Origin: Marinobacter bohaiensis | GTDB lineage: Bacteria; Pseudomonadota; Gammaproteobacteria; Pseudomonadales; Oleiphilaceae | Direction: 5' to 3' | Assembly: GCF_003258515.1 (NCBI RefSeq) | Contig: NZ_QGEH01000001.1 | Span: forward strand, 2,542,001 to 2,606,000 | Length of the DNA: 64,000 bases | Shown: one piece after another, positions 3,590-55,320 of the stretch | How positions within the stretch are numbered: position 1 is the first letter of the stretch | Layout: each line of letters opens with the position of its first letter | The notes under the pieces: generated by a model | Database searches by the model: none | The model's input: only the letters and a program-made list of their open reading frames with translations | What the model was told of the DNA's origin: nothing | Made by a program: the position numbers and the translations under genes

Positions 3590-4500
3590 CCGATACACGC
3601 CAACTCCGGGTCGCTGCCATCCAGCAGGCCTGCAGCCCGGACAAAAACGAAAGCCTGGCCACTTCCGAGCGCCTGATCCGCGCGGCTGTGGCCGATGGCG
3701 CTCAACTGGTGGTCCTGCAGGAACTGCACGCCACCCTGTATTTCTGCCAGAACGAAGATACAGACACATTCAACCTGGCCGAGCCCATCCCCGGCCCCAC
3801 GTCCGAGCATCTGGCCGGCCTGGCCCGAGAACTCGACGTCGTGCTGGTGGGCTCGATCTTCGAGCGCCGCATGAACGGCGTCTACCACAACACGGCCGTC
3901 GTGTTTGAGCGTGACGGCAGCCTCGCCGGGCTGTATCGCAAGATGCATATTCCGGACGACCCCGGCTTTTACGAGAAATTCTACTTCACACCCGGCGACG
4001 CCCAGTTCAACGACGGCCACAGCGGGTTTACCCCGATCGACACCTCGGTGGGCAAGCTGGGCCTCCTGGTCTGCTGGGACCAGTGGTATCCCGAAGCCGC
4101 CCGCCTGATGGCACTGGCCGGCGCCGAGCTGCTGATCTACCCCACCGCGATCGGCTGGGACATCACCGACAAAGCGGACGAACAGCAACGCCAGCTTGAA
4201 GCCTGGGTGACCGTGCAGCGCGGCCACGCCGTGGCCAACAACCTGCCGGTCATCGCGCCCAATCGCGTCGGAACCGAGCCGCACCCGGAAGGTATTGGCG
4301 ACGGCATCCGGTTCTGGGGCAACAGCTTCATCTGCGGCCCTCAGGGCGAGTTCCTGGCCCGCGCGGGCGACGCCGGGGAATCCATCCTGCACGCGGTGAT
4401 CGACCGGGACCGTAGCGAGTCCATCCGCCGCATCTGGCCCTACCTGCGGGACCGCCGCATCGAGGCCTATGGTGACATCCTCAAGCGGGTGCGAGATTGA
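3586..4500 (+). CDS. aguB: N-carbamoylputrescine amidase (nitrilase superfamily)
   Basis: Converts N-carbamoylputrescine to putrescine, CO2 and ammonia, completing the pathway begun by AguA. It has 304 residues and a carbon-nitrogen hydrolase fold with the Glu-Lys-Cys triad visible: E46 in LVVLQELH, K119 in LYRKMHIPDD and C163 in LLVCWDQWYPE. The ATG at 3586 overlaps the aguA stop (ATGA), so the longer upstream reading is not used. It ends in TGATG, which is shared with the start of the MoxR gene. Length and motifs are typical, and the pairing with aguA confirms the assignment. Confidence 0.94.
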   Translation: MTDTRQLRVAAIQQACSPDKNESLATSERLIRAAVADGAQLVVLQELHATLYFCQNEDTDTFNLAEPIPGPTSEHLAGLARELDVVLVGSIFERRMNGVYHNTAVVFERDGSLAGLYRKMHIPDDPGFYEKFYFTPGDAQFNDGHSGFTPIDTSVGKLGLLVCWDQWYPEAARLMALAGAELLIYPTAIGWDITDKADEQQRQLEAWVTVQRGHAVANNLPVIAPNRVGTEPHPEGIGDGIRFWGNSFICGPQGEFLARAGDAGESILHAVIDRDRSESIRRIWPYLRDRRIEAYGDILKRVRD

Positions 4501-5420
4501 TGGATCGTATGAAAAAAGTCATCGATGATACGGTCGCCCGTCTCAACGGCATCCTGTTGGGCAAGGATCACCAGGTGCGCCTGGCCGTGTGCTGCATCCT
4601 GGCCCGCGGACACCTGCTGATCGAGGATATCCCGGGCATGGGCAAGACCACCCTGTCCCATGCCATGGCCCGTGCCATGGATCTGAGCTATACCCGCATC
4701 CAGTTCACCAACGACCTGCTGCCAGCGGACGTACTGGGCTTTTCCATGTACGACAAGGAAGCCGGCAGCCTCGTATTCCACCCGGGCCCGATCTTCAGCC
4801 AGGTGGTCCTGGCGGACGAGATCAACCGCGCTTCTCCACGCACCCAGAGCGCGCTGCTTGAGGCCATGGAAGAGCGTCAGGTCTCTATTGAGGGCGAGAC
4901 CCGCCCCCTGCCGAAACCGTTCTTTGTCATCGCCACCCAGAATCCGCTGGAACAGGGGGGCACCTACCCCCTACCGGAATCCCAGCTGGACCGGTTCCTG
5001 ATGCGCATCGAACTGGGTTACCCGGATCCGCGGGCCGAACGTGAGCTTCTGGAAGGCTCGGACCGCCGGCAGCTCACGGCCGAACTGGCGCCTATCCTCA
5101 CGCCCGACAACCTGTCGGTGCTGCAACAAGCCGTCGACCGCATCAAGACCAGCCCGGCCCTGCTCGACTACGTGCAACGCATCCTCCAGCAGAGCCGCCA
5201 GATGCCGGGCGTTCTCTATGGCCTGTCGCCCCGCGCCGGACTGGGTCTGGTGCGAGCCGCCCGTGCCTGGGCGCTGATGGACGGCCGCCATCACGTGCTG
5301 CCGGACGATGTTCAGGCGGTCCTGCCTGCCGTTGCCCGCCACCGTCTGGAACAGGGCGATACCGGCCAGAGTCAGCAGCGCATTCGACAGCTGATGGAAC
5401 AGGTGACCGTTCTGACCTGA
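4500..5420 (+). CDS. MoxR-family AAA+ ATPase
   Basis: 306 residues. Walker A is IPGMGKTT (about 44-51) and Walker B is VVLADE (about 102-107); the MoxR motif ATQNPLEQGGTYPLPESQLDRF follows with the C-terminal lid. MoxR proteins act as chaperone-like ATPases, usually with a DUF58/VWA partner encoded next to them. Here the gene instead overlaps the aguB stop by one base (TGATG), and no DUF58, VWA or transglutaminase gene follows before trxB. A second possible start is TTG at 4497. The family is clear, but substrate and partner are unknown. Co-transcription with polyamine genes is implied by the overlap. Confidence 0.9.
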   Translation: MDRMKKVIDDTVARLNGILLGKDHQVRLAVCCILARGHLLIEDIPGMGKTTLSHAMARAMDLSYTRIQFTNDLLPADVLGFSMYDKEAGSLVFHPGPIFSQVVLADEINRASPRTQSALLEAMEERQVSIEGETRPLPKPFFVIATQNPLEQGGTYPLPESQLDRFLMRIELGYPDPRAERELLEGSDRRQLTAELAPILTPDNLSVLQQAVDRIKTSPALLDYVQRILQQSRQMPGVLYGLSPRAGLGLVRAARAWALMDGRHHVLPDDVQAVLPAVARHRLEQGDTGQSQQRIRQLMEQVTVLT

Positions 5421-5493
5421 GCGGACGGCCCTTGAAAAAGTCGGCTCGACCGTCATATCCGTTGGAAACCCGGCACGGAAGCCACGCCCATAG

Positions 5494-6570
<1,077 letters not shown>

Positions 6571-6581
6571 CTCGCCGCAGA

Positions 6582-6626
6582 AAGCCCGACGGCGCGCCTG
6601 ATCCGGCGCCCGTCGGGCTTTTTTGT
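6582..6626 (+). terminator. Rho-independent terminator after trxB
   Basis: AAGCCCGACGGCG (from 6582) pairs with CGCCCGTCGGGCTT (ending about 6620) across a short loop, with one bulge. A run of six T follows. It lies just after the trxB stop. Confidence 0.85.
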
Positions 6627-6716
6627 GGGTCATCCCCGAGTCGTGCCCGAGTCCGGCGTAGATGCTACCCTTCCTGTAAAGAGCCAACGGCGTGCACTGG
6701 AGTACCCGACCCGACA

Positions 6717-7430
6717 ATGACCTCATTGCCCTGGCTTGATCCCGATGAGCTCTGGTTCCCCTCGCCGGAAGAGGCTTTGGACGAACCTGACGGCCTGTTG
6801 GCGATTGGCGGCGACCTCGCCCCCGAGCGGCTGGAAAGAGCCTATCGTTCCGGCATATTCCCCTGGTTCAGTGAAGAGCAACCCATTCTCTGGTGGTCGC
6901 CCAACCCCCGCTGCGTGCTCATTCCCGATGAGGTGCACATTTCGCGGCGACTGAGGCGCACGCTCAACCAGGAACGCTTCCGCATCACCATCGACCGCAA
7001 TTTCTCCGGTGTGATTCGCGGTTGCGCCGAGGTACGCGAGGAAGGCACCTGGATCACCGACGAGATGGAACAGGCCTACAAGCGCCTGCACCGCCGCGGC
7101 CTGGCACACTCCTTTGAAGCCTGGAACGACCGGGGCGAACTGGTCGGCGGACTCTATGGCGTCGCCATCGGGTGCTGCTTCTTCGGCGAATCCATGTTCA
7201 CCCGGGAAACCGACGCGTCCAAGGTCGTCTTCGTCCACGTCGCCCGTCAACTGCAGGCCTGGGGCTATGCGCTCATGGACTGCCAGGTGGAAAACAGTCA
7301 CTTGATCAGCCTCGGGGCGCGGTGTATTCCACGCAAATCCTTTTTAACTATACTGGAGAAAAACATCGACAAATCACCCGGACACCAGCAGTGGATCCTG
7401 GAAAAACACTGGACCCGCGCCGAACGCTAG
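6717..7430 (+). CDS. aat: Leucyl/phenylalanyl-tRNA--protein transferase
   Basis: Transfers Leu or Phe from aminoacyl-tRNA to N-terminal Arg or Lys of proteins, creating N-degrons recognised by ClpS. It has 237 residues with family blocks WFPSPEEALDEPDGLLAIGGDL, GIFPWFSEEQPILWWSPNPR, GTWITDEMEQAYKRLH, GGLYGVAIG, FFGESMF and DCQVENSHLISLGA. It stands directly before bpt (11 bp gap), and the clpS/clpA genes lie 2-4 kb on, so the whole Leu/N-degron route is clustered. The start ATG gives the expected N-terminus, although the upstream ribosome site is weak. Confidence 0.95.
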   Translation: MTSLPWLDPDELWFPSPEEALDEPDGLLAIGGDLAPERLERAYRSGIFPWFSEEQPILWWSPNPRCVLIPDEVHISRRLRRTLNQERFRITIDRNFSGVIRGCAEVREEGTWITDEMEQAYKRLHRRGLAHSFEAWNDRGELVGGLYGVAIGCCFFGESMFTRETDASKVVFVHVARQLQAWGYALMDCQVENSHLISLGARCIPRKSFLTILEKNIDKSPGHQQWILEKHWTRAER

Positions 7431-7441
7431 CAGGAGGTGTG

Positions 7442-8158
7442 ATGAGCAGCCTCAAGACACTGGTATTCTTCGCAACCCCCCCACACGACTGCAGCTACCT
7501 GTCTGACCGCGAGGCGACGACCATGTTTGTCGACCCCCGCGCCCATGTCGACAAGCGCCTCTACAGCCAGCTCACGGCCCTTGGTTTTCGTCGCAGCGGC
7601 TCCCACTATTACCGGCCGCATTGCGAAAACTGCAACGCCTGCATCCCGGTGCGGCTGGACGCCACCGCGTTTCAGCCCAACCGATCCCAGCGCCGGGTCT
7701 GGAAGCGCAACGAGGACATCACCTTCCGCCTGCAACCGGCACGTTTCCAGGAAAATTACTACCAGCTCTACGCCCGCTATATCGAGCAACGCCACCATGA
7801 CGGCGATATGTATCCGCCCTCACGGGAACAGTTCACCTCTTTCCTGGTGGAAGGCGCCAACCAGAGCGAGTTCCTGGAAATGTGGCGCGACGACGAGCTC
7901 ATTGGCCTGGCCGTCCTGGACGCGCTTGACGACGGACTTTCCGCCATCTATACCCTGTTCGACCCGGATGAAGAGGGGCGCAGCCTGGGTACCCTGGGGA
8001 TTCTCTGGCAAGTGGAAGAAGCCCAGCGCCGGCATCTGCCGTTCCTGTACCTGGGGTACTGGATACGTGAATGCCGAAAAATGAATTACAAGTCGCGCTT
8101 CAAGCCGCTGGAGGCCCTGATCGGCGGCCACTGGCAACCGCTGAACGTCAGTGATTGA
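7442..8158 (+). CDS. bpt: Aspartate/glutamate leucyltransferase (Bpt/ATE family)
   Basis: Adds Leu to N-terminal Asp or Glu of proteins, a second N-degron-generating transferase, formerly annotated as arginyl-tRNA-protein transferase. It has 238 residues. The N-terminus holds CSYLSDREATTMFVDP, then GFRRSGSHYYRPHCENCNACIPVRL with the conserved cysteines, and SQRRVWKRNEDI. The C-terminal GNAT-like part includes LYLGYWIRECRKMNYKSRFKPLE. The ATG at 7442 follows GGAGGTG at ideal spacing, so the long upstream reading frame that overlaps aat is rejected. Probably co-transcribed with aat. Confidence 0.94.
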   Translation: MSSLKTLVFFATPPHDCSYLSDREATTMFVDPRAHVDKRLYSQLTALGFRRSGSHYYRPHCENCNACIPVRLDATAFQPNRSQRRVWKRNEDITFRLQPARFQENYYQLYARYIEQRHHDGDMYPPSREQFTSFLVEGANQSEFLEMWRDDELIGLAVLDALDDGLSAIYTLFDPDEEGRSLGTLGILWQVEEAQRRHLPFLYLGYWIRECRKMNYKSRFKPLEALIGGHWQPLNVSD

Positions 8159-8187
8159 GGCGGCCGGCACGGCCGGCAGGATCCGGC

Positions 8188-8216
8188 AACTTTCCATTTT
8201 GCCATCGGGTTATAAT
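8188..8216 (+). promoter_or_regulatory. infA promoter
   Basis: A perfect TATAAT lies at 8211-8216. The matching -35 position 17 bp upstream (AACTTT, 8188-8193) is poor, so an activator or a strong extended context may help. Transcription would start near 8223, giving a leader of about 110 bases before infA. Confidence 0.5.
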
Positions 8217-8249
8217 TCAGGCAGAATTGCGCACATTTATCGCGCTGGG

Positions 8250-8285
8250 CGTCGGGCCCTTGATTTTTCTATTTCCGGCCCGACG
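8250..8285 (+). promoter_or_regulatory. Stem-loop in the infA leader
   Basis: CGTCGGGCC (8250-8258) and GGCCCGACG (8277-8285) are exact inverted repeats of nine bases around an 18-base AT-rich loop. There is no T-run after the right arm, so a terminator is unlikely. If the TATAAT at 8211 is used, the hairpin lies in the mRNA leader about 47 bases before the infA start. A role in leader stability or feedback is conjecture. Confidence 0.5.
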
Positions 8286-8331
8286 TTATAGCCCGTAATC
8301 AATCGACTCAAACACGTGAGGTTCCTACTGA

Positions 8332-8550
8332 ATGGCGAAATCCGATGTCATTGAAATGGAAGGTGTGATTGTAGACACCCTCCCCAACACCATGTTCCGC
8401 GTTGAGCTGTCCAACGGCCACGTCGTGACAGCCCACATTTCCGGCAAGATGCGCAAGAACTACATCCGCATCCTGACCGGCGACAAGGTCAAGGTTGAGC
8501 TGACTCCCTACGACCTGAGCAAGGGCCGCATCGTCTACCGCGCCCGTTAA
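8332..8550 (+). CDS. infA: Translation initiation factor IF-1
   Basis: 72-residue OB-fold protein that binds the ribosomal A site during initiation. The sequence [13 protein letters not shown]...[14 protein letters not shown]...[11 protein letters not shown] is the family from end to end, at exactly the usual length. It sits between bpt and the convergent clpA gene, has its own promoter, and is closed by a strong terminator. Confidence 0.97.
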
Positions 8551-8596
8551 TCGGTTTCCGCACTGCGATTTGCCGGGCCGACAACGCCCGCGCCGT

Positions 8597-8628
8597 CAAA
8601 AGCCCCGCCTTTCGCGCGGGGCTTTTTG
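8597..8628 (+). terminator. Rho-independent terminator after infA
   Basis: AGCCCCGC (8601-8608) pairs with GCGGGGCT (8616-8623), followed by TTTTGTTTT. It is 50 bases past the infA stop. Confidence 0.85.
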
Positions 8629-8711
8629 TTTTCCCGCTTTTGTATCCCCACTTGTTTGCCGCTTGCCCGTCGGCCCCGTTGCCCAGCGAACCCGCCTGCT
8701 GACGCGAGCAT

Positions 8712-8743
8712 AAAAAAACCCGCTTCCAGAGAAGCGGGTTTTC
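8712..8743 (-). terminator. Rho-independent terminator after clpA
   Basis: AACCCGCTTC and GAAGCGGGTT are inverted repeats around a five-base loop. On the minus strand the stem is followed by a run of seven T. It sits 18 bases past the clpA stop. A-rich and T-rich flanks could let it also stop readthrough from infA. Confidence 0.85.
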
Positions 8744-8760
8744 TATACCGATGCCGAATC

Positions 8761-11028
8761 TCAGACAGCTTCGGCGGGTTCGTTCTCGTACTCGAAAACC
8801 AGTTCGTCGTTCTCGAGATGGATATGAACCTCCCCTCCCGTCTCGGCCAGGGCTCCGAACAGGATCTGCTCGGCCAGCGGCCGCTTGATCTTGTCCTGGA
8901 TCAGGCGCGACATTGGGCGGGCGCCCATGGTCACGTCGTAGCCCTTCTCGGCGAGCCAGAGCTTGGCGTCATCGTCCACATGCAGGACAACGCGCTTCTC
9001 ATCCAACTGCGCCTGAAGCTCGGTGAGGAACTTGTCCACCACGTGGGTGATGGTGTCCCGCTGCAGATCGGCAAACTGGATGATGCCGTCCAGGCGATTG
9101 CGGAACTCCGGCGTGAAGGTCTTGGTGATCACTTCCATGCCGTCGGTGCTGTGATCCTGCTCGCTGAAGCCGATCGAGCGACGCGTCATGGTCTCGGCAC
9201 CGGCGTTGGTGGTCATCACCAGGATCACGTGGCGGAAATCCGCCTTGCGGCCGTTGTTGTCGGTCAGCGTGCCGTGATCCATCACCTGCAGCAGCAGGTT
9301 GAACACTTCCGGATGCGCCTTCTCGATCTCGTCCAGCAGCAGGACGCAATGCGGCTGCTTGTTGACCGCCTCGGTCAGCAAACCGCCCTGATCGAAGCCG
9401 ACGTAGCCGGGAGGCGCACCGATCAGCCGCGACACGGTGTGACGCTCCATGTACTCGGACATATCGAAGCGCACCAGCTCGATCCCCAGGATTTTGGCCA
9501 ACTGCCGGGTGACCTCGGTCTTACCGACCCCGGTGGGGCCGGAAAACAGGAACGCCCCTTCCGGCTTCTCCGGTGCCTTCAGGCCCGCCCGCGCCAGCTT
9601 GATGGCGGTGGACAGGGACTCTATGGCACGGTCCTGACCGAACACCACCATCTTGAGATCCCGCTCCAGGTTGCGCAGCAGATCCTTATCGCTGGTGGAT
9701 ACGCTCTTCGGCGGAATTCGCGCGATGGTGGCCACCACGTCCTCAATCGAGGAGACACCGATGACCTTGCGGCGCTTGTTGCTCGGCATCAGGCGCTGAC
9801 GGGCACCGGCCTCGTCGATCACGTCGATGGCTTTGTCCGGCAGGTGCCGGTCGGTGATGTAACGATCCGCCAGCTCAGCCGCCACGCGCAGGGCCTTGTC
9901 CGTGTACTTGAGGTCGTGATGCTTCTCGAAGTGGGACTTCAGGCCGCGCAGGATCTGGTAGGTATCCTCGACGCTGGGCTCGTTGACATCGATCTTCTGG
10001 AAACGGCGCGCCAGGGCGCTGTCTTTCTCGAAGATACCGCGGAATTCTGAGAAGGTCGTGGAGCCGATGCAACGGATCTCCCCGGAACTCAGCAGTGGCT
10101 TGAGCAGGTTGGAGGCGTCCATGACGCCACCCGATGCCGACCCAGCACCGATAATCGTATGAATCTCGTCAATAAAGAGAATCGCATGATCCTCTTTCTT
10201 GAGCTCGGCCAGAAGCCCCTTGAAGCGCTTCTCGAAGTCGCCACGGTACTTGGTGCCCGCCAGCAGCGCGCCCAGGTCCAGGGAATAGACCACGGCGTCG
10301 GAAATCACGTCCGGCACCTGACCGTCGACCACCCGCTTGGCCAGACCTTCGGCGATGGCGGTCTTGCCGACGCCGGCCTCGCCGACCAGCAGCGGGTTGT
10401 TCTTGCGGCGCCGCACCAGAATCTGCACCACCCGCTCGACTTCGTGCTCGCGACCGATCAGCGGATCGATGCGGCCCTGCCGGGCCTGCTCGTTCAGGTT
10501 GGTGGCATAGCTCTCCAGCGGCTTGGAGGACGTTCCGTCCTCGCCCACCTCTTCCTGGGTATGGTCGGTGCCTTCCTGCTCTTCTCCGCCCTGAACCCGG
10601 GAAATACCGTGGGATACGTAATTGACGACATCAATCCGGGCAATGTTCTGCTTCTTCAGCACATACACAGCCTGACTTTCCTGCTCACTGAAGATGGCCA
10701 CCAACACATTGGCCCCGGTTACTTCCTTCTTGCCGGAAGACTGGACATGGAAGACAGCCCGCTGCAGCACACGCTGGAAACCGAGCGTCGGTTGGGTTTC
10801 ACGCTCACTGTCGTTATGGGGAATCAGGGGCGTGGTCGAATCCACGAACTCCAGAAGCTCTTCCTGGAGTCGCTGCAGATCTGCGCCGCATGCCTTGAGC
10901 ACACCGATGGCAGAGTCATTGTCCAGCAGAGCCAACAACAAGTGCTCCACCGTCATGAACTCGTGCCGCTTGTCACGGGCATTCTTGAACGCAGTATTCA
11001 GCGTGATTTCCAGATCTTTACTTAGCAT
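8761..11028 (-). CDS. clpA: ATP-dependent Clp protease ATP-binding subunit ClpA
   Basis: Hexameric AAA+ unfoldase that feeds substrates, including ClpS-delivered N-degron proteins, to ClpP. It has 755 residues: an N-domain (about 1-145, [11 protein letters not shown]...[14 protein letters not shown]), an acidic linker, D1 with Walker A GEAGVGKT (about 216-223) and ILFIDEIHT, and D2 with Walker A GPTGVGKT (about 497-504) and [13 protein letters not shown]. It ends in the usual LAEQILFG region plus an acidic tail. The start is the ATG at 11028 rather than the TTG four codons upstream, and matches the ClpA N-terminus. It is directly downstream of clpS (18 bp gap). Confidence 0.97.
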
Positions 11029-49399: not shown

Positions 49400-49495
49400 A
49401 GCCTGCAAGCCAATACGCTATAGACGTTCATGATCTCCGCCCGCGGAGATACCCAGGGGCTGTCGTCCCTTCCCAATGCACGAGAAGGAGAACCC

Positions 49496-50545
49496 GTGAA
49501 AGCCATACCCTCTGTTATCCGTTCGCCGCTGATGACCGGCCTGCTGCTCACTGTCAGTCTGCCCGCCGCCGCAGATCTGGCCGTACTGCAATACCACCAC
49601 GTCAGTGACGACACGCCGGCCGCGACCAGCACCACGCCGGCGCTGTTCGACCAGCAACTGGAGCTGATCGACACACTGTCGTTGCCGGTGGAACCGCTGC
49701 GGACCGCCACCGAGCACGCGCTGTCCGGACAGATGGGCGCCGATCCGGCGGTGGCGATTACCTTCGACGACGCCTACACCTCGGTTTACACCACCGCCGC
49801 CCCCAAACTGCTGGAGCGGGACTGGCCCTTCACGGTCTTCGTCAATACCGACGCCATCAATGAGGGCCGCCACGACTACATGACCTGGGATCAACTGAAG
49901 GAGCTGGCCAGCCATCCGCAAGTCACCATCGCCAACCACAGCGCCGATCACGGCCACCTGGTGCGCAAGCTCGATGAAAGCGAGGAACACTGGCAGCAGC
50001 GGGCAGCCGCCAGCCTGGACCAGGCGCAGTCGACCCTGGCCAGCAAGCTCGGCACGGACGCGCCGCTGTTTGCCTACCCCTACGGCGAATTCGATGAGAA
50101 CCTGGAAGCCCTGATCCAGGCACGGGACTGGTACGGCTACGGCCAGCATTCCGGCGCGGTCGGGGAAAGCTCCGGCGCTACCCGCCTGCCCCGCTTCCCA
50201 ATGGCCAACGCCTACGGGCAGATGGAGGGCCTGAAAGACAAACTGCTCAGCCGCGCCCTGCCGGTTGACGCGAACACGCTGCCGGACGGCCGTCTGCCTG
50301 AGAATCCCCCCACCCTGGCCCTGGACCTGCCGGAGTCGCTGCGGGCGTCCGCCCTGACCTGCTTTGGCTCCGGCGTGGGACAGCTGGATGTGGAACCGAC
50401 CGGCAACGGCAACCGGGTGACGATCACCGCCGACCAGCCCTTCAACAGCCGCCGTTTCCGCTACAACTGCACCTATCCGGCCGGCGAAGGGCGCTACTAC
50501 TGGCAGTCGGTCCAGTGGCTGGACCGGAGCCAGCCGGAAGACTGA
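49496..50545 (+). CDS. Secreted polysaccharide deacetylase (NodB family)
   Basis: 349 residues with a signal peptide (SPLMTGLLLTVSLPAAA). NodB motifs: TFDDAY (catalytic Asp pair), NHSADHGHL (H-x3-H zinc ligands), FAYPYGEFDENL. A C-terminal ~110-residue part is beta-rich and may bind carbohydrate. Likely deacetylates cell-wall or exopolysaccharide N-acetylhexosamine in the periplasm. The GTG at 49496 sits five bases after AAGGAG and fits the signal peptide; the ATG at 49430 would add 22 unlikely residues. Ends 9 bp from the convergent envelope operon. Confidence 0.9.
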   Translation: MKAIPSVIRSPLMTGLLLTVSLPAAADLAVLQYHHVSDDTPAATSTTPALFDQQLELIDTLSLPVEPLRTATEHALSGQMGADPAVAITFDDAYTSVYTTAAPKLLERDWPFTVFVNTDAINEGRHDYMTWDQLKELASHPQVTIANHSADHGHLVRKLDESEEHWQQRAAASLDQAQSTLASKLGTDAPLFAYPYGEFDENLEALIQARDWYGYGQHSGAVGESSGATRLPRFPMANAYGQMEGLKDKLLSRALPVDANTLPDGRLPENPPTLALDLPESLRASALTCFGSGVGQLDVEPTGNGNRVTITADQPFNSRRFRYNCTYPAGEGRYYWQSVQWLDRSQPED

Positions 50546-50554
50546 TCCGACCGC

Positions 50555-51781
50555 TCAAGGCGCCAACTGCACCAGCCCCAGCAAACCGCTGTGGGCGTGG
50601 TGCAGCACCCGGGGCCCCGCCTCACTCTCGATAACGGTCTGGCCCACCTGGTCCTGCTGGCGCGACAGGATCAGCAGCCAGCGCTCGCCCCGGCCCGGGA
50701 AAACCGGTACCCGCGCCTCCAGGTAACCCAGTCGGTGCCAGTTCTCGGCGGCGTAGTCGAAAGCCAGGTCGGTAACCAGTCGCTGCACGGCCATCTCTTC
50801 ATCGAGGAAAACCAGCGTCGGCACGAAGACGGTGTTGTCGATATAGGACCGAACCTGCGCCACGAACGCTGAAACTGCGGCCGGTTCCGGCAACCGCACC
50901 AGCCGATAGACGCTCTCCCCGGAGGCAAATCGGTAGGTTGGCGCCAGGTCGTCCAGGTCCAACTGGAATTCCCGGGAATCGTCCCATTGCGCCAGGTCCG
51001 TGACCGGCAGCCCGCCGCAGCACCGCTCCCGCCAACGCTGAAGCAGCGTCCCGTCGCGGTCGATGCCGAGTACGGCCAGGGTCTCGCGATTCGCCGCCGG
51101 CACCACGCCGGGCCGGCTTTCAATCACTAAACCTGGCGTCAGCGATGGCGCGGACTCCGCACGCGGTTCCTTCTCGAATCCAGGCTTCGGGCGATAGTAG
51201 TCAACCCGCAGGTTGCCGTGGGCGTCCCGCCAGGTGAAGTACGGCAGCGGATCGCCGTCCCGGACAAAGCCGTCCCGGGCCAGCGCGTCGCCGTCGGGAA
51301 AGTTTTCCAGGGTATATTCGGTGTCGTCGGCAGCCCGGTTCCCGGAATGCTCTGCCGATGCCGGCCGGGGGGAATCCGGTACGCGCGTTGAACGTCGCGG
51401 GACAGCTTCGGGCGCCGCCGTTGCCTTCCCGGGCTCGTTAGCATCACGCGTCGAGGCGACCGGTTCGTCAGGCTCCTGAAGGTGGTCGTTTTCGACCCGC
51501 CGTGCGGCTGCGGGCTTCTCACCTGGCTTCTCAGTGCTCCCCCGGGACCGGGCGTCGTCCGCCGCCGTGGTGTTGCCTTCGCTGCCTTCACTGCGCCGCG
51601 CCTCTTCCACTTTCCGGGCCCGCGCCTCAAGCGGGTCAGCCCCGTCCCGAATCAGGGTATGGTGCACATTGCCGTGCTCGTCGACCCAGGTGAAATAGCG
51701 CTTGTCGGCCTGCGCCGGCGGGGCCATCGCTAGCCCCAGCCCGACCCCAAACAACAACGCCCGCTGTATTTGCCCAATCAC
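50555..51781 (-). CDS. Secreted DUF4124 protein with duplicated motif and MalM-like C-terminus
   Basis: 408 residues. Signal peptide (1-26, GLGLAMAPPAQA), then a DUF4124 unit YFTWVDEHGNVHH (29-41). A long charged linker (50-175) leads to a second copy of the same motif, YFTWRDAHGNLR (181-192). Residues 240-408 look like the MalM family: a CC pair (ERCCGGLPV), QLDLDDLAPTYRFASGESVYRLVRLPEP, and FVPTLVFLDEE. The GTG start at 51781 has AGGAGG at ideal spacing. Last gene of the four-gene envelope operon. Function unknown; MalM itself is a periplasmic protein of the maltose regulon with unclear role. Confidence 0.83.
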   Translation of the reverse strand: MIGQIQRALLFGVGLGLAMAPPAQADKRYFTWVDEHGNVHHTLIRDGADPLEARARKVEEARRSEGSEGNTTAADDARSRGSTEKPGEKPAAARRVENDHLQEPDEPVASTRDANEPGKATAAPEAVPRRSTRVPDSPRPASAEHSGNRAADDTEYTLENFPDGDALARDGFVRDGDPLPYFTWRDAHGNLRVDYYRPKPGFEKEPRAESAPSLTPGLVIESRPGVVPAANRETLAVLGIDRDGTLLQRWRERCCGGLPVTDLAQWDDSREFQLDLDDLAPTYRFASGESVYRLVRLPEPAAVSAFVAQVRSYIDNTVFVPTLVFLDEEMAVQRLVTDLAFDYAAENWHRLGYLEARVPVFPGRGERWLLILSRQQDQVGQTVIESEAGPRVLHHAHSGLLGLVQLAP

Positions 51782-51792
51782 GCCTGCTCCTC

Positions 51793-53418
51793 CTAGAACC
51801 GCGTCCTGAAACTCAGGCCGGCCATCACCACTCGCAGCGAGGTCTTCACATCCAGACCCGCGTAAGGGTTATAGATGATGTTCGTGATCCCCGTGCAGTT
51901 GACGTTGCAGCTGGAATTGGCGGGAATCTCCTCCACCGAGTGCAGGTAACTGAGGTTCATATCGATCTGCGTGTCCCGGTCCCAACGATATCCCAACCCC
52001 ACGCTATAGAGTTTGGTGTCGCCAAACGGCGCCATCACCTGGCGCTGGTCGTCCGGGATCACCGAATCGCGGATTTCCAGCCCCGCGCGCAGGTCCAGCC
52101 GGGACGACGCGTGGTATTCCATGCCGAAACCCCAGGTCCACTGGTCCTTGAAGCCCAACGGGAGTCGCAGCGAATTGGGCGTCGCGTTGTCCGGCGACAG
52201 GATGCGCGCCGCGTTAAGGAACTCCAGGTTGCGGTCAAACTGGAAGTTCAGGGCATCCCACTCGGAGAAATCGGTCCAGCCCACATCCGCATTCAGTGTC
52301 AGCTTGGGGTGGACATCGACGCTGATACCGGTCTGGAAATGCTGCGGATAGGTCAGGTTCAGGCTGACGTTACCCGACTCCCGCGGCGCGCCGGACGGCA
52401 GGCTCAGGATGGCCGAGCCGACCGCGCCGATGATCGAGCTGTTGACGCTCTGCCAGAAGCCGGACCAGTCCTCGGTGTACTCGATGGCAAACGAGCCCTT
52501 CATGTTCATGTCCGCTTCCGAGGTGTAGCTCGCCCCCCAGCGGAACCAGTCGGTGGGCTCCCACATCACCCCCAGGGAGTAGTTCGGCGAGACGGTTTCC
52601 TGGACGTCGATACTCAGCGCGCCGATATCATCCCAGGGCCCCACGTTGCCGCCACAGAGCGCAAGCCACGGCGCCAGCGGCTCGTCACCGGTTTCACAGT
52701 TGAAGGCATCCTGCAGCACTTCCGCCACCCCCAGCAGCATGTTGGGCGCCCGCATGTACTGGTCGGCCGCAACGCCCATGTGGGAAATCTGGACACCGGC
52801 CCCCACCGACCATTCGTCGTTGATCTCGTAGCCCACCGTCGGCGCCAAATACGTGGTCCGCTGCAGGGCCGTCGCTTTGGGCTGGTAACGGCCCGGGTCT
52901 TCCTTTTCCCGGTAGTAGCCCGCCGCCATGGGCATGTAGAAGGCGTTGGCAAACGTCAGCTTGGAACCCGGCGACTGAACGCTGATCCCCGCCGACGGCG
53001 CCAGGGCCGGCCCCTTGGGCAGCTTCTGGATACCGTAACCGGGCACATAGAGGGCAACGTTGTTGGTGTGACTGTGACTGTTGGCGATGGGGTCCCGCTG
53101 TTCGCCAGTCAGGGGGTCGGTTTCCAGGCCATCGATGCCGAAGATTTCGTAGCCTTTCGGGGCGGTGAAATCGGCGTCGATATCCATGTAGATGCCCATC
53201 AGGTTGACCTCGAACTGCCGCCCCTCCAGCTTGGTCAGGCCCGCCGGGTTGTAGTGCACGGCCATGATCCCCGGTGGATCGGCCGTCACCGCATTACCCA
53301 GGGCCAGCGCCTTGGGATGAATGGTCAGGTTCTGGGTCATTTGCGCCTGAACGCTGCCGGCGAGCAGCCCAGCCACCAGCGTCCCCGCCAGTCGCAGTGC
53401 GTTGGAGTCGGATCGCAT
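51793..53418 (-). CDS. FadL/OmpP1-family outer-membrane protein
   Basis: 541 residues. Signal peptide (LRLAGTLVAGLLAGSVQAQ), the NPAG motif of the family in HYNPAGLTKLEG (following the AVTADPPGIMAV segment), many alternating beta strands, and a C-terminal Phe (GLSFRTRF) as in barrel proteins. FadL proteins carry fatty acids or other hydrophobic molecules across the outer membrane. A long loop holds four cysteines in two pairs. Start ATG 53418 (signal peptide, AGGGG upstream); a GTG at 53460 overlapping the previous stop would add 14 residues. Substrate unknown. Confidence 0.87.
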   Translation of the reverse strand: MRSDSNALRLAGTLVAGLLAGSVQAQMTQNLTIHPKALALGNAVTADPPGIMAVHYNPAGLTKLEGRQFEVNLMGIYMDIDADFTAPKGYEIFGIDGLETDPLTGEQRDPIANSHSHTNNVALYVPGYGIQKLPKGPALAPSAGISVQSPGSKLTFANAFYMPMAAGYYREKEDPGRYQPKATALQRTTYLAPTVGYEINDEWSVGAGVQISHMGVAADQYMRAPNMLLGVAEVLQDAFNCETGDEPLAPWLALCGGNVGPWDDIGALSIDVQETVSPNYSLGVMWEPTDWFRWGASYTSEADMNMKGSFAIEYTEDWSGFWQSVNSSIIGAVGSAILSLPSGAPRESGNVSLNLTYPQHFQTGISVDVHPKLTLNADVGWTDFSEWDALNFQFDRNLEFLNAARILSPDNATPNSLRLPLGFKDQWTWGFGMEYHASSRLDLRAGLEIRDSVIPDDQRQVMAPFGDTKLYSVGLGYRWDRDTQIDMNLSYLHSVEEIPANSSCNVNCTGITNIIYNPYAGLDVKTSLRVVMAGLSFRTRF

Positions 53419-53456
53419 ATCGTGAATCCCCTGCCTTCGTTGCGCTTTGGGTCGGC

Positions 53457-54464
53457 TCACTCCTTGAGTCCCGAGAAGTTGATGGGCAGGGAAAGCCCGA
53501 TGTTGAAGTCCGGTGCGTCTTCGGTGAGACCAATGCCGACGCTGGTGTTGAGGATGGTGGTGTCACTCACCCGGGTGCCGAGGGAAAAGCTGAGAAACCC
53601 GGTCATCTGGTCCTGGGCGACGGCTTCGGTGCCGTCACTGAATGACAGGGTGGTCTCGTCGCTGTAGCTGATCTGGGTGGAGACGCTCAACGAAATGTCG
53701 TAGGACAGGGAATAGGCAAAGCCCAGCGAGCCCGACAGACCGAACCCAGGCTCCACTTCCGTCAGCAGGCGGGCACCACGGACCTGATCCAGGCCGTCTT
53801 CCTTGACGTTGTAGCTGGCGCTGGCCGAGCCGAACAGCACCACCGGATCGAGCACCTTGGACAGGCTGGCCCCGCCGGACACCGTGTAATAGCCCGAGCC
53901 GGTCGAGAGCTGCCGCCGGATATCAATCTCGTAGGGACTGACCCCGGTCTTGGTGGTGATCGAGGTAAACAGCGTGGTGGACATCTGGCCCGGCACGTAG
54001 GCGCTGGGCTGCCAGCGGGCGGTGAAAGAAACGTCGCCCACGTCGTAGATTTCCAGCTCGTCCTGGGTGTCGTACTTGACCACCAGCGGCAGTCGCGCAC
54101 CGATGGTCAGGTTGTCGAACAGGCCATAATCGTAGGAAAAGGCGTTGGTGAAGCTGTGGGTGGCGGACGGCACGATGTCCAGGTTCCGTACCGAGCCATC
54201 GGAGATTTCCAGGTCCAGCCGCTGGTCGCCGGTGTAGGAATAATCGAACGAGTATGTCAGGGCGTGAGTGCCCTCCGCCTGCAGCGAATAGTTTTTCTCC
54301 GCGGACTCGAAGACTTCCTCCAGCTGTTTGGTGGCATCCTCGTCCCCCTCCTGCCTGGACAGGGCTTCTCGCGCCTGATCGGCGTTGTCGTCCTGTGCCA
54401 GCGCCAGCATCGGCTGGCCGGCGGCGGAAAAGATGATCAAACCTCGCACTACCCAACGCTTCAT
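53457..54464 (-). CDS. Outer-membrane beta-barrel protein with helical N-terminus, FapF-like in layout
   Basis: 335 residues. Signal peptide (1-23), then a charged, probably coiled-coil N-terminus (DNADQAREALSRQEGDEDA to EEVFESAEKNYSL), then about 260 residues of alternating strands (LTYSFDYSYTGDQRLDLEI, TIGARLPLVVKYD, ARWQPSA) ending in IGLSLPINF. A coiled coil plus barrel, encoded after a C39-type peptidase, recalls FapF, the pore of Pseudomonas functional amyloid secretion; the match is of arrangement, not a proved homology. Strong AAGGGAA ribosome site before the ATG. Not a substrate-binding protein. Confidence 0.8.
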   Translation of the reverse strand: MKRWVVRGLIIFSAAGQPMLALAQDDNADQAREALSRQEGDEDATKQLEEVFESAEKNYSLQAEGTHALTYSFDYSYTGDQRLDLEISDGSVRNLDIVPSATHSFTNAFSYDYGLFDNLTIGARLPLVVKYDTQDELEIYDVGDVSFTARWQPSAYVPGQMSTTLFTSITTKTGVSPYEIDIRRQLSTGSGYYTVSGGASLSKVLDPVVLFGSASASYNVKEDGLDQVRGARLLTEVEPGFGLSGSLGFAYSLSYDISLSVSTQISYSDETTLSFSDGTEAVAQDQMTGFLSFSLGTRVSDTTILNTSVGIGLTEDAPDFNIGLSLPINFSGLKE

Positions 54465-54519
54465 CCGAGTTCCCTTTTATTCTTGGAATAGGTCTGGCTG
54501 ACGGGCCCCGCTCCCGCAA

Positions 54520-55320
54520 TCAGTTGCGGCGGTAATAGAGTTGTTTGCGGGTGTTCTCGACCGTGCCGTCAGGATTGTTCTTCTGTTGTTCCAGCAGATT
54601 GTTGATGCGACGTTCGGTCGCCTCGTAAAAATCAGGAATGGTGTCCATCGCCAACAGCGTCATCGTCTGGTCGTCGACAAAACGCATGTCCTCGTCGCTC
54701 AGCTGAAGCACATCGAGCGGCTTCTCTTCGCCGGGAAACACGATGAACAGGACGTTGTCGTCCCACTTTTCCTCAAACTGAACCAGCGGAAAGGAAATGT
54801 TGCCGATGGACGGATCCGCCAGGAAAACCCGATCGTCGCGGATCGCGCGCAGCACCACGAAATGCTTGAAGCCGGCATGATGAATGGGAACGATGGCCGG
54901 ATGATCCAGCTCCCGGAGGTCTTCGACGTTGGCGCGGAACCCCCCTGAGGGATAACCCAGCGCGGTGACCAGCCGTTTCATGTCGAGCATGGAGAAGGCG
55001 CGGCGCTGCACGATCCGTTCGCTCTCGCCGTAGTGGAGCAGCCCCTCCATTACCTGGCGCTCGTTCAGGTTGCGCCCCAGGTAATAGCGCAGCACCGTGG
55101 TCAGCGCGGCCGAACCGCAACTGTAGTCGTAGGCCTGGCGCACGATATGGCGATAGCGCTGTTCGACCAGAGGCGCCACGGTGAACTCGCTACGCAGGGT
55201 CTGTGGCGAGGCGTCGTAATCCTGTTCGATCACGATGTCCCGTGGGCCGAAGGGTTCCACGTCGGTAGCTTCCCGGACCATCGCGAATGTCAGCAAGGAC
55301 CCGGCCAGGACCAGCATCAT
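54520..55320 (-). CDS. Membrane-anchored C39-family cysteine peptidase
   Basis: 266 residues. The N-terminal hydrophobic segment (LVLAGSLLTFAMV) is a short anchor or uncleaved signal. The peptidase core has catalytic C68 in YDYSCGSAALTTVLRYYLG, H153 in FKHFVVLRAI and D169 in LADPSIG, the C39 (bacteriocin-processing) triad. Similar stand-alone C39 proteins include FapD of the amyloid operon. The C-terminal helix (ATERRINNLLEQQKNN) is extra. First gene of the operon; start ATG 55320 or 55317. It probably cleaves a secreted or barrel-linked substrate in the periplasm, not identified here. Confidence 0.85.
   Translation of the reverse strand: MMLVLAGSLLTFAMVREATDVEPFGPRDIVIEQDYDASPQTLRSEFTVAPLVEQRYRHIVRQAYDYSCGSAALTTVLRYYLGRNLNERQVMEGLLHYGESERIVQRRAFSMLDMKRLVTALGYPSGGFRANVEDLRELDHPAIVPIHHAGFKHFVVLRAIRDDRVFLADPSIGNISFPLVQFEEKWDDNVLFIVFPGEEKPLDVLQLSDEDMRFVDDQTMTLLAMDTIPDFYEATERRINNLLEQQKNNPDGTVENTRKQLYYRRN

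Follow-up and report, generated by a model that had tools for sequence, protein, structure and literature searches.

The 64,000 nucleotides between positions 2,542,001 and 2,606,000 of Marinobacter bohaiensis contig NZ_QGEH01000001.1 (here "the window") contain four adjacent genes, which code for a stand-alone C39 peptidase, an outer-membrane barrel, a FadL-family protein and an exported protein with a MalM domain. The locus raises a simple question: which protein is cut by the peptidase, and what passes through the barrel encoded next to it? An original prediction, made from the letters and a list of open reading frames (ORFs), saw in this layout the FapD-FapF arrangement of functional amyloid secretion and placed the substrate either elsewhere in the genome or among the operon's own products. 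Our present results suggest that the operon is probably the maturation and export apparatus of a pilus filament resembling the Fil system of Acinetobacter. The genes are therefore called filB, filC, filD and filE.

Relationship to Fil and Fap proteins

The best NCBIfam models for the first three proteins are FilB (268 bits, cut-off 475), FilC (NF050079, 339 bits, cut-off 630) and FilD (NF050080, 546.6 bits, cut-off 970). These models are of the exception type with strict cut-offs; because all three scores stay below them, the operon is named Fil-like and not Fil. In Pfam, FilB belongs to Peptidase_C39 (PF03412, 68 bits, cut-off 22), FilD to Toluene_X/FadL (PF03349, 253.6 bits) and residues 289-387 of FilE to MalM (PF07148, 40.6 bits), a domain present in 9 of the 10 FilE-position proteins of relatives tested. 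The C39, FadL and MalM identities originally predicted are thus recovered, and the predicted DUF4124 match of FilE (PF13511) reaches 18.3 bits, under its cut-off of 22. The Pfam search gave no family above cut-off for the FilC barrel, so that a phenol-degradation porin, named earlier as an unrelated identity that the barrel might have, did not appear.

Both proteins of the filB-filC pair are also related to Fap components. FilB scores 118.5 bits with the FapD model (equivalog cut-off 330, not reached) and FilC 62.7 bits with the FapF model (NF058560, equivalog cut-off 700, not reached), while a FilC profile finds the FapF structure 5o68 in the PDB with E = 3.2e-23 over profile positions 90-328. 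By these profile comparisons, FilB and FilC are true but distant relatives of FapD and FapF, and an arrangement first read from layout is supported by the sequences of both proteins. The long FapF-like coiled coil presumed at the N-terminus of the barrel was not confirmed: by inspection, signal peptide and barrel are only about 35 residues apart. None of the four operon genes matches a Fap subunit model in the NCBIfam library, which includes FapB and FapC; the lack of such a gene had been noted before.

FilB keeps the full C39 catalytic set of Gln, Cys, His and Asp (Q62, C68, H153 and D169) in all 14 FilBs aligned. The active site of PCAT1 is given as C21 and H99/D115 (passages of PMC6959990); Gln62 was paired with Q15 of PCAT1 because both stand six residues ahead of the Cys, the printed alignment having a one-residue gap there. 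FilB is probably anchored in the inner membrane and faces the periplasm.

A second leader on FilA-like proteins

A search with the FilA model (NF050077) revealed relatives scattered over the window's genome and those of its kin, none of which reaches the model cut-off. A FilA-family protein of the window's genome matches the model with E 7e-7, under its cut-off, and matches DUF6160 above that family's own cut-off; seven FilA relatives tested are all DUF6160 proteins. Their N-terminus opens with a Sec signal peptide, followed after about four residues by a 12-residue motif such as LDDGAMGNVTGQ and then by the mature part. From the leader-profile matches, three in the window's genome (E 0.38-0.67) were dropped, as were weak ones of E 0.06 and above in genomes that lack FilC. 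The C-terminus of many FilA proteins is a conserved tripeptide, YGH or WGH.

Leaders of C39 substrates follow the consensus L(-12)XXXE(-8)L(-7)XXXXG(-2)G(-1) with a hydrophobic residue at -4 (passages of PMC6959990 and PMC10885120). Thirteen residues are enough for cleavage by LahT150, according to passages on C39 reading in PMC6959990, PMC10885120 and PMC6363468 taken jointly. Counts were made on 40 FilA-like N-termini, one per stretch, which are 40 of the many DUF6160 matches listed, with a choice of counting window that favours the double-glycine register. Hydrophobic residues occupy position -12 in all 40 (L/M in 37, I/V in 3), position -7 in all 40 (L/M throughout) and position -4 in 38 (V/I/M/A), and Gly occupies position -2 in all 40. 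The strict motif is present in 34 of the 40 and in five of the six leaders of the window's own genome, and in none of 373 other ORFs from the relatives' loci to which a crude script assigned a signal peptide.

One feature fits cleavage by a C39 enzyme poorly. Position -1 does not carry the Gly, Ala or Ser expected there: it is Gln in 38 of the 40, which is atypical for C39. Leaders nearer to the classical type do occur, for example LSDAELSEVDGA in the window's own genome and LSDNELRTITGQ in genome G026, and position -1 is Ala in one of the six leaders of the window's genome. The leader might then be a docking tag read by FilB or FilC, with another periplasmic protease removing it or with FilB acting only as a chaperone; the atypical Gln would suit this explanation, as would the catalytically dead C39-like domains that serve as docking modules in type I secretion (passages of PMC6363468). 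Against it stand the complete catalytic set of all 14 FilBs and the finding that FapC secretion needed the active-site Cys of the related FapD (passages of PMC5557850). We regard a mere docking tag as unlikely and prefer cleavage by FilB.

Six leader proteins are encoded in the window's genome, none of them beside the operon; four are clustered on contig C6 and another lies on C4. This fits the earlier suggestion that the substrate of the peptidase is encoded elsewhere. The suggestion that it is the barrel N-terminus or the DUF4124 linker, for which both were read by eye only, found no support. In the C6 cluster (locus L079, 3429-8670), the four leader proteins, 189 to 803 amino acids long, stand in a row on one strand and possibly form a multi-subunit surface structure.

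The small leader proteins of genomes G139 and G026 share signal peptide and leader with FilA. The mature parts of leader proteins from these two genomes gave no match to the FilA mature profile (13 sequences, among them 3 duplicates, as the same G139 proteins lie in two overlapping loci; best E 0.048). Because the leader is thus also found on proteins with unrelated mature parts, it is probably a sorting tag. Genome G139 has 15 DUF6160 matches, and its leader proteins are small and scattered. A leaderless paralogue of 1541 amino acids in genome G018 has its signal peptide joined directly to a FilA-like mature start, position 39 of the DUF6160 profile aligning to residue 30 (21.7 bits, under cut-off). 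Its gene (L099, 1165-5790) lies between filD and filE, and its product contains TSP3 repeats and a GlyGly-CTERM signal that is weak and under cut-off.

Co-occurrence of FilA-like proteins with FilC

Among 293 genomes at the order level, DUF6160 was found in 41 and FilC with at least 184 bits in 40, both being present in 40; no genome of the 293 has a strong FilC without DUF6160. The genome with DUF6160 only, G246, matches with E = 5.6e-5, under cut-off by the tally. Below the 184-bit set the FilC scores drop to 91 bits, and DUF6160 is absent from all 15 genomes whose FilC- or FapF-like matches are only of this weaker kind. The association (Fisher p 1e-48, a value that ignores phylogeny) rests on 40 genomes spanning 8 families. 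Two genomes of the window's own family, G213 and G324, have neither DUF6160 nor a strong FilC. At the class level, in 184 genomes with the window's own among them, DUF6160, strong FilC and strong FilB all occur in the same four genomes; in G026, one of the four, DUF6160 scores under the family cut-off. In 19 genomes of relatives, again with the window's own, FilA-family proteins occur in 14, all with FilC; the fifteenth FilC is a contig-end fragment in G014, a genome 75% complete, where leader proteins were found by the leader profile.

The two genes are often linked as well. In at least 23 of the 40 genomes, filC is preceded on its own strand by a DUF6160 gene at a distance of less than 4 kb, a count that drew on 57 of the DUF6160 matches listed. 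The remaining 17 genomes, for which no filC-adjacent DUF6160 gene was counted, include the window's own family.

Mature FilA and a solved filament

The predicted structure of FilA is all-beta, with a mean predicted local distance difference test score (pLDDT) of 77.7. Values fall below 50 at residues 16-39, and the ordered beta domain starts at residue 41, just past the GQ at 37-38. A FilA profile has a single match in the PDB up to E = 10, namely 9xfv (E = 7.7e-6), an assembly of 25 chains entitled "bacteria pilus (like)" and described as a "Pilus-like-alpha" filament from a karst cave; FilA is thus homologous to the subunit of a solved filament. In the alignment, residue 1 of the 9xfv chain falls right behind GQ, and the chain and FilA end together. 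The short FilA of a distant genome finds 9xfv by phmmer with the same start (E = 1.2e-5); the FilA of the window's genome, used alone in a single-sequence search, did not find it.

The same boundary is seen in a distant family, where 17 of 398 genomes match the first 107 residues of 9xfv. In all ten loci taken from these 17 genomes, a leader ending in TGQ or SGQ stands just ahead of the aligned start, and in nine of the ten a C39 gene lies directly downstream (1.5 kb examined). Signal peptidase would not normally cleave behind TGQ, which points to a second protease; the one encoded there is FilB.

The filament bears on the amyloid reading, in which the operon is a Fap-type system, FilB and FilC work as FapD and FapF, and FilA is an amyloid and not a pilin. 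The homology of FilC to FapF, the FapD score of FilB and the predicted all-beta fold of FilA would agree with it. However, both scores lie far under the FapD and FapF equivalog cut-offs, the four operon genes match no Fap subunit model, the nearest solved relative of FilA is a pilus-like assembly, and the same genome holds a separate locus with a C39 peptidase and a FapF-like barrel. We therefore consider an amyloid quite unlikely and retain the pilus filament as the preferred reading.

Proposed mechanism

According to our proposal, the FilA-like (DUF6160) subunits would be exported by Sec and would lose their signal peptide to signal peptidase, as in the standard pathway. A pro-leader of about 16 amino acids should then remain, composed of the four or so residues and the 12-residue motif in its double-glycine register. 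FilB, anchored and periplasmic, would bind the leader helix through positions -12, -7 and -4 and cut after GQ; this cut is supported by the filament subunit, whose first residue is the one that follows. The freed subunit would be threaded through FilC, a homologue of the FapF barrel to which we ascribe export, and would polymerise outside into a pilus-like filament such as the homologous 9xfv. As a sorting tag, the leader would probably direct several cargoes to one FilB-FilC exporter; it may also act as a catch against early polymerisation. More speculatively, the FadL-like FilD and the MalM-like FilE could serve in the envelope as accessory parts, perhaps in docking or in handing over subunits. 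Homology, leader register, co-occurrence, linkage and the match between cut site and filament N-terminus are shown by the data, whereas we infer the cleavage by FilB, the export by FilC, the filaments of this organism and the role of the leader as an assembly catch.

A wider reading can be put forward only tentatively, its chances being in our view somewhat short of even. Systems of this type would form a distinct pilus class and sorting pathway, in which Sec-exported pro-pilins lose a second leader of double-glycine type to a membrane-anchored periplasmic C39 peptidase and then leave through a FapF-type barrel. The leader would be a portable tag for many unrelated cargoes, and FapD of the Fap amyloid systems would act likewise on neighbours with true GG or GA leaders.

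Operon layout and conservation

All four ORFs lie on the minus strand at 50555..55320 (Table 1), with the small gaps and overlaps predicted originally: 55 bp between filB and filC, a 4-bp overlap of filC and filD, and 11 bp between filD and filE. ATG 53418, with AGGGG upstream, is possibly the better start of filD. FilC, FilD and FilE begin with signal-peptide-like sequences by inspection, and FilB with a predicted anchor-like helix, in keeping with the claim that all products are exported. A polysaccharide deacetylase gene (PgaB/IcaB-like, window 49430-50545) is convergent to filE and, by eye, adjoins the operon in several relatives, for example at L088, L090 and L093.

Table 1. Genes and protein features of the Fil-like operon (positions in the window)
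Feature	Position	Strand	Description
filB	54520..55320	-	Stand-alone C39 cysteine peptidase, 266 aa, FapD-related
FilB N-terminal hydrophobic helix, residues 2-19	55264..55317	-	Likely membrane anchor; predicted helix; hydrophobic start across 14 aligned FilBs
FilB catalytic Cys68	55117..55119	-	Invariant in 14/14 FilBs; aligns to PCAT1 Cys
FilB Gln62	55135-55137	-	Invariant in 14/14 FilBs
FilB catalytic His153	54862..54864	-	Invariant in 14/14 FilBs; aligns to PCAT1 His
FilB Asp169	54814-54816	-	Invariant in 14/14 FilBs; aligns to PCAT1 Asp
filC	53457..54464	-	FapF-related outer-membrane barrel, 335 aa, proposed export pore
filD	51793..53460	-	FadL/Toluene_X-family outer-membrane protein, 555 aa from GTG; 541 aa from ATG 53418
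filE	50555..51781	-	Exported protein, 408 aa: DUF4124-like N-terminus, long linker, MalM domain
MalM domain of FilE, residues 289-387	50621..50917	-	PF07148

The operon is real and conserved. In a tblastn table of the four genes, the order B-C-D-E on one strand is found in 77 of 80 named loci, which answers the earlier call for a tabulation of adjacency across genomes; the remaining three end at contig ends. The 80 are the best of 450 FilB relatives and come mostly from Marinobacter. The strict order holds in 12 of 14 loci of relatives, another having the extra 1541-aa gene between D and E and the last being a contig without filB. By this test, twelve more distant loci include six with all four genes, four with B-C-D and no recognisable filE, and two with B-C only. 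In one of these two, G139 (L082), other genes follow downstream; in the other, G026, the contig ends about 0.4 kb past filC. Because neither filD nor filE adjoins the pair in G139, FilD and FilE may be accessory. By eye, the G139 pair adjoins type IV pilus genes (L082, L083).

The operon might alternatively serve the uptake of hydrophobic compounds, with a FadL channel, a COG4313-like channel and helpers, and with the peptidase as a passenger. FilD is indeed of the FadL/TodX family, and COG4313 uptake channels structurally resemble FapF (passages of PMC6173800). A passenger is hard to reconcile with the place of the peptidase in the same conserved order in those 77 loci, with the filB-filC pair of G139, which has neither filD nor filE beside it, and with the presence of DUF6160 in all 40 strong-FilC genomes. 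Uptake appears highly improbable to us, and maturation and export of a filament remains the preferred function.

Implications

The Fil name, DUF6160 and the filament structure are each already public, separately. No paper joining the three was found in the literature searched, which included few subscription papers and no bioRxiv preprints. The original prediction stood in its reading of the layout and missed the Fil name, the substrate family and the filament structure, which were not knowable without tools. If our proposal is correct, a defined family of substrates can be assigned to FilB, a relative of FapD, together with a precise point of cleavage that agrees with where a solved filament subunit begins. 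A mechanism would follow for a named and as yet unexplained pilus system, in Acinetobacter as well, DUF6160 proteins would be explained, and leaders of the double-glycine type would be seen to act outside ABC (ATP-binding cassette) transporters. The case is relevant to FapD too, a periplasmic C39 peptidase needed for amyloid secretion in Pseudomonas (passages of PMC5557850 and PMC6173800).

Comparison with known systems

The closest known system is Fil of Acinetobacter, a "putative pilus system" encoded by a six-gene fil operon (NF050077-NF050081). FilB, FilC and FilD are homologous and their genes follow one another alike; FilA-like proteins also exist here, as does a protein in the FilE position, and the order filB-filC-filD-filE is shared. 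In contrast to Acinetobacter Fil, all scores here are under the models' cut-offs, filA occurs in several copies away from the operon, and the protein in the FilE position carries a MalM domain. FilF was found in none of 19 genomes, in a search whose controls were also blank; distant genome G024 encodes a FilF-like lipoprotein (68 bits, under cut-off). Both FilC and FilF are raised in biofilm of A. baumannii (passages of PMC8792954), and the lipoprotein FilF needs the type II system for its release (passages of PMC12802150), which fits a surface structure. No assigned function of FilB was found in the literature on the Fil system.

With the Fap system of Pseudomonas, the operon shares a periplasmic C39 peptidase adjoining a FapF-family barrel, with homology at the profile level; colocalised fapD and fapF homologues are known from five further phyla (passages of PMC6173800). 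Unlike Fap, it has no Fap subunit match, FadL-like and MalM-like proteins are added, and the substrates carry a GQ leader right behind the signal peptide. The target of FapD was described as unclear in 2017 and 2018 (passages of PMC5557850 and PMC6173800).

The separate Fap-like locus of the window's genome (C1:478000-492000, L013) encodes the second C39 peptidase and FapF-like barrel at 4444-8872. Its neighbours are proteins of 413 aa, made of NDSGND-type repeats, of 116 aa, containing LSTDQLQESNGR, and of 254 aa, in which LDNPELDQQRGG follows a hydrophobic stretch; they look leader-bearing by eye and were not flagged by the script. In other genomes, exported proteins of 115-180 amino acids stand beside FapD-type peptidases (L112 5860-6336, L113 5624-6142, L114 7645-8187 and L102 6469-6816). 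These four have textbook double-glycine leaders, for example LTSEEMAALRGG and LSAQELGEVSGA, match no Pfam family over cut-off, and are candidate substrates of FapD-type enzymes.

The 9xfv filament subunit is related in sequence to mature FilA and matches it at both termini; it has 173 amino acids, whereas mature FilA of the window's genome has about 244. Finally, PCAT1, LahT and ComA are peptidase-containing ABC transporters, whereas FilB is stand-alone, probably periplasmic and has no ABC transporter part. In contrast to the double-glycine leaders of ABC systems, the leader described here follows a Sec signal peptide and has Gln at -1.

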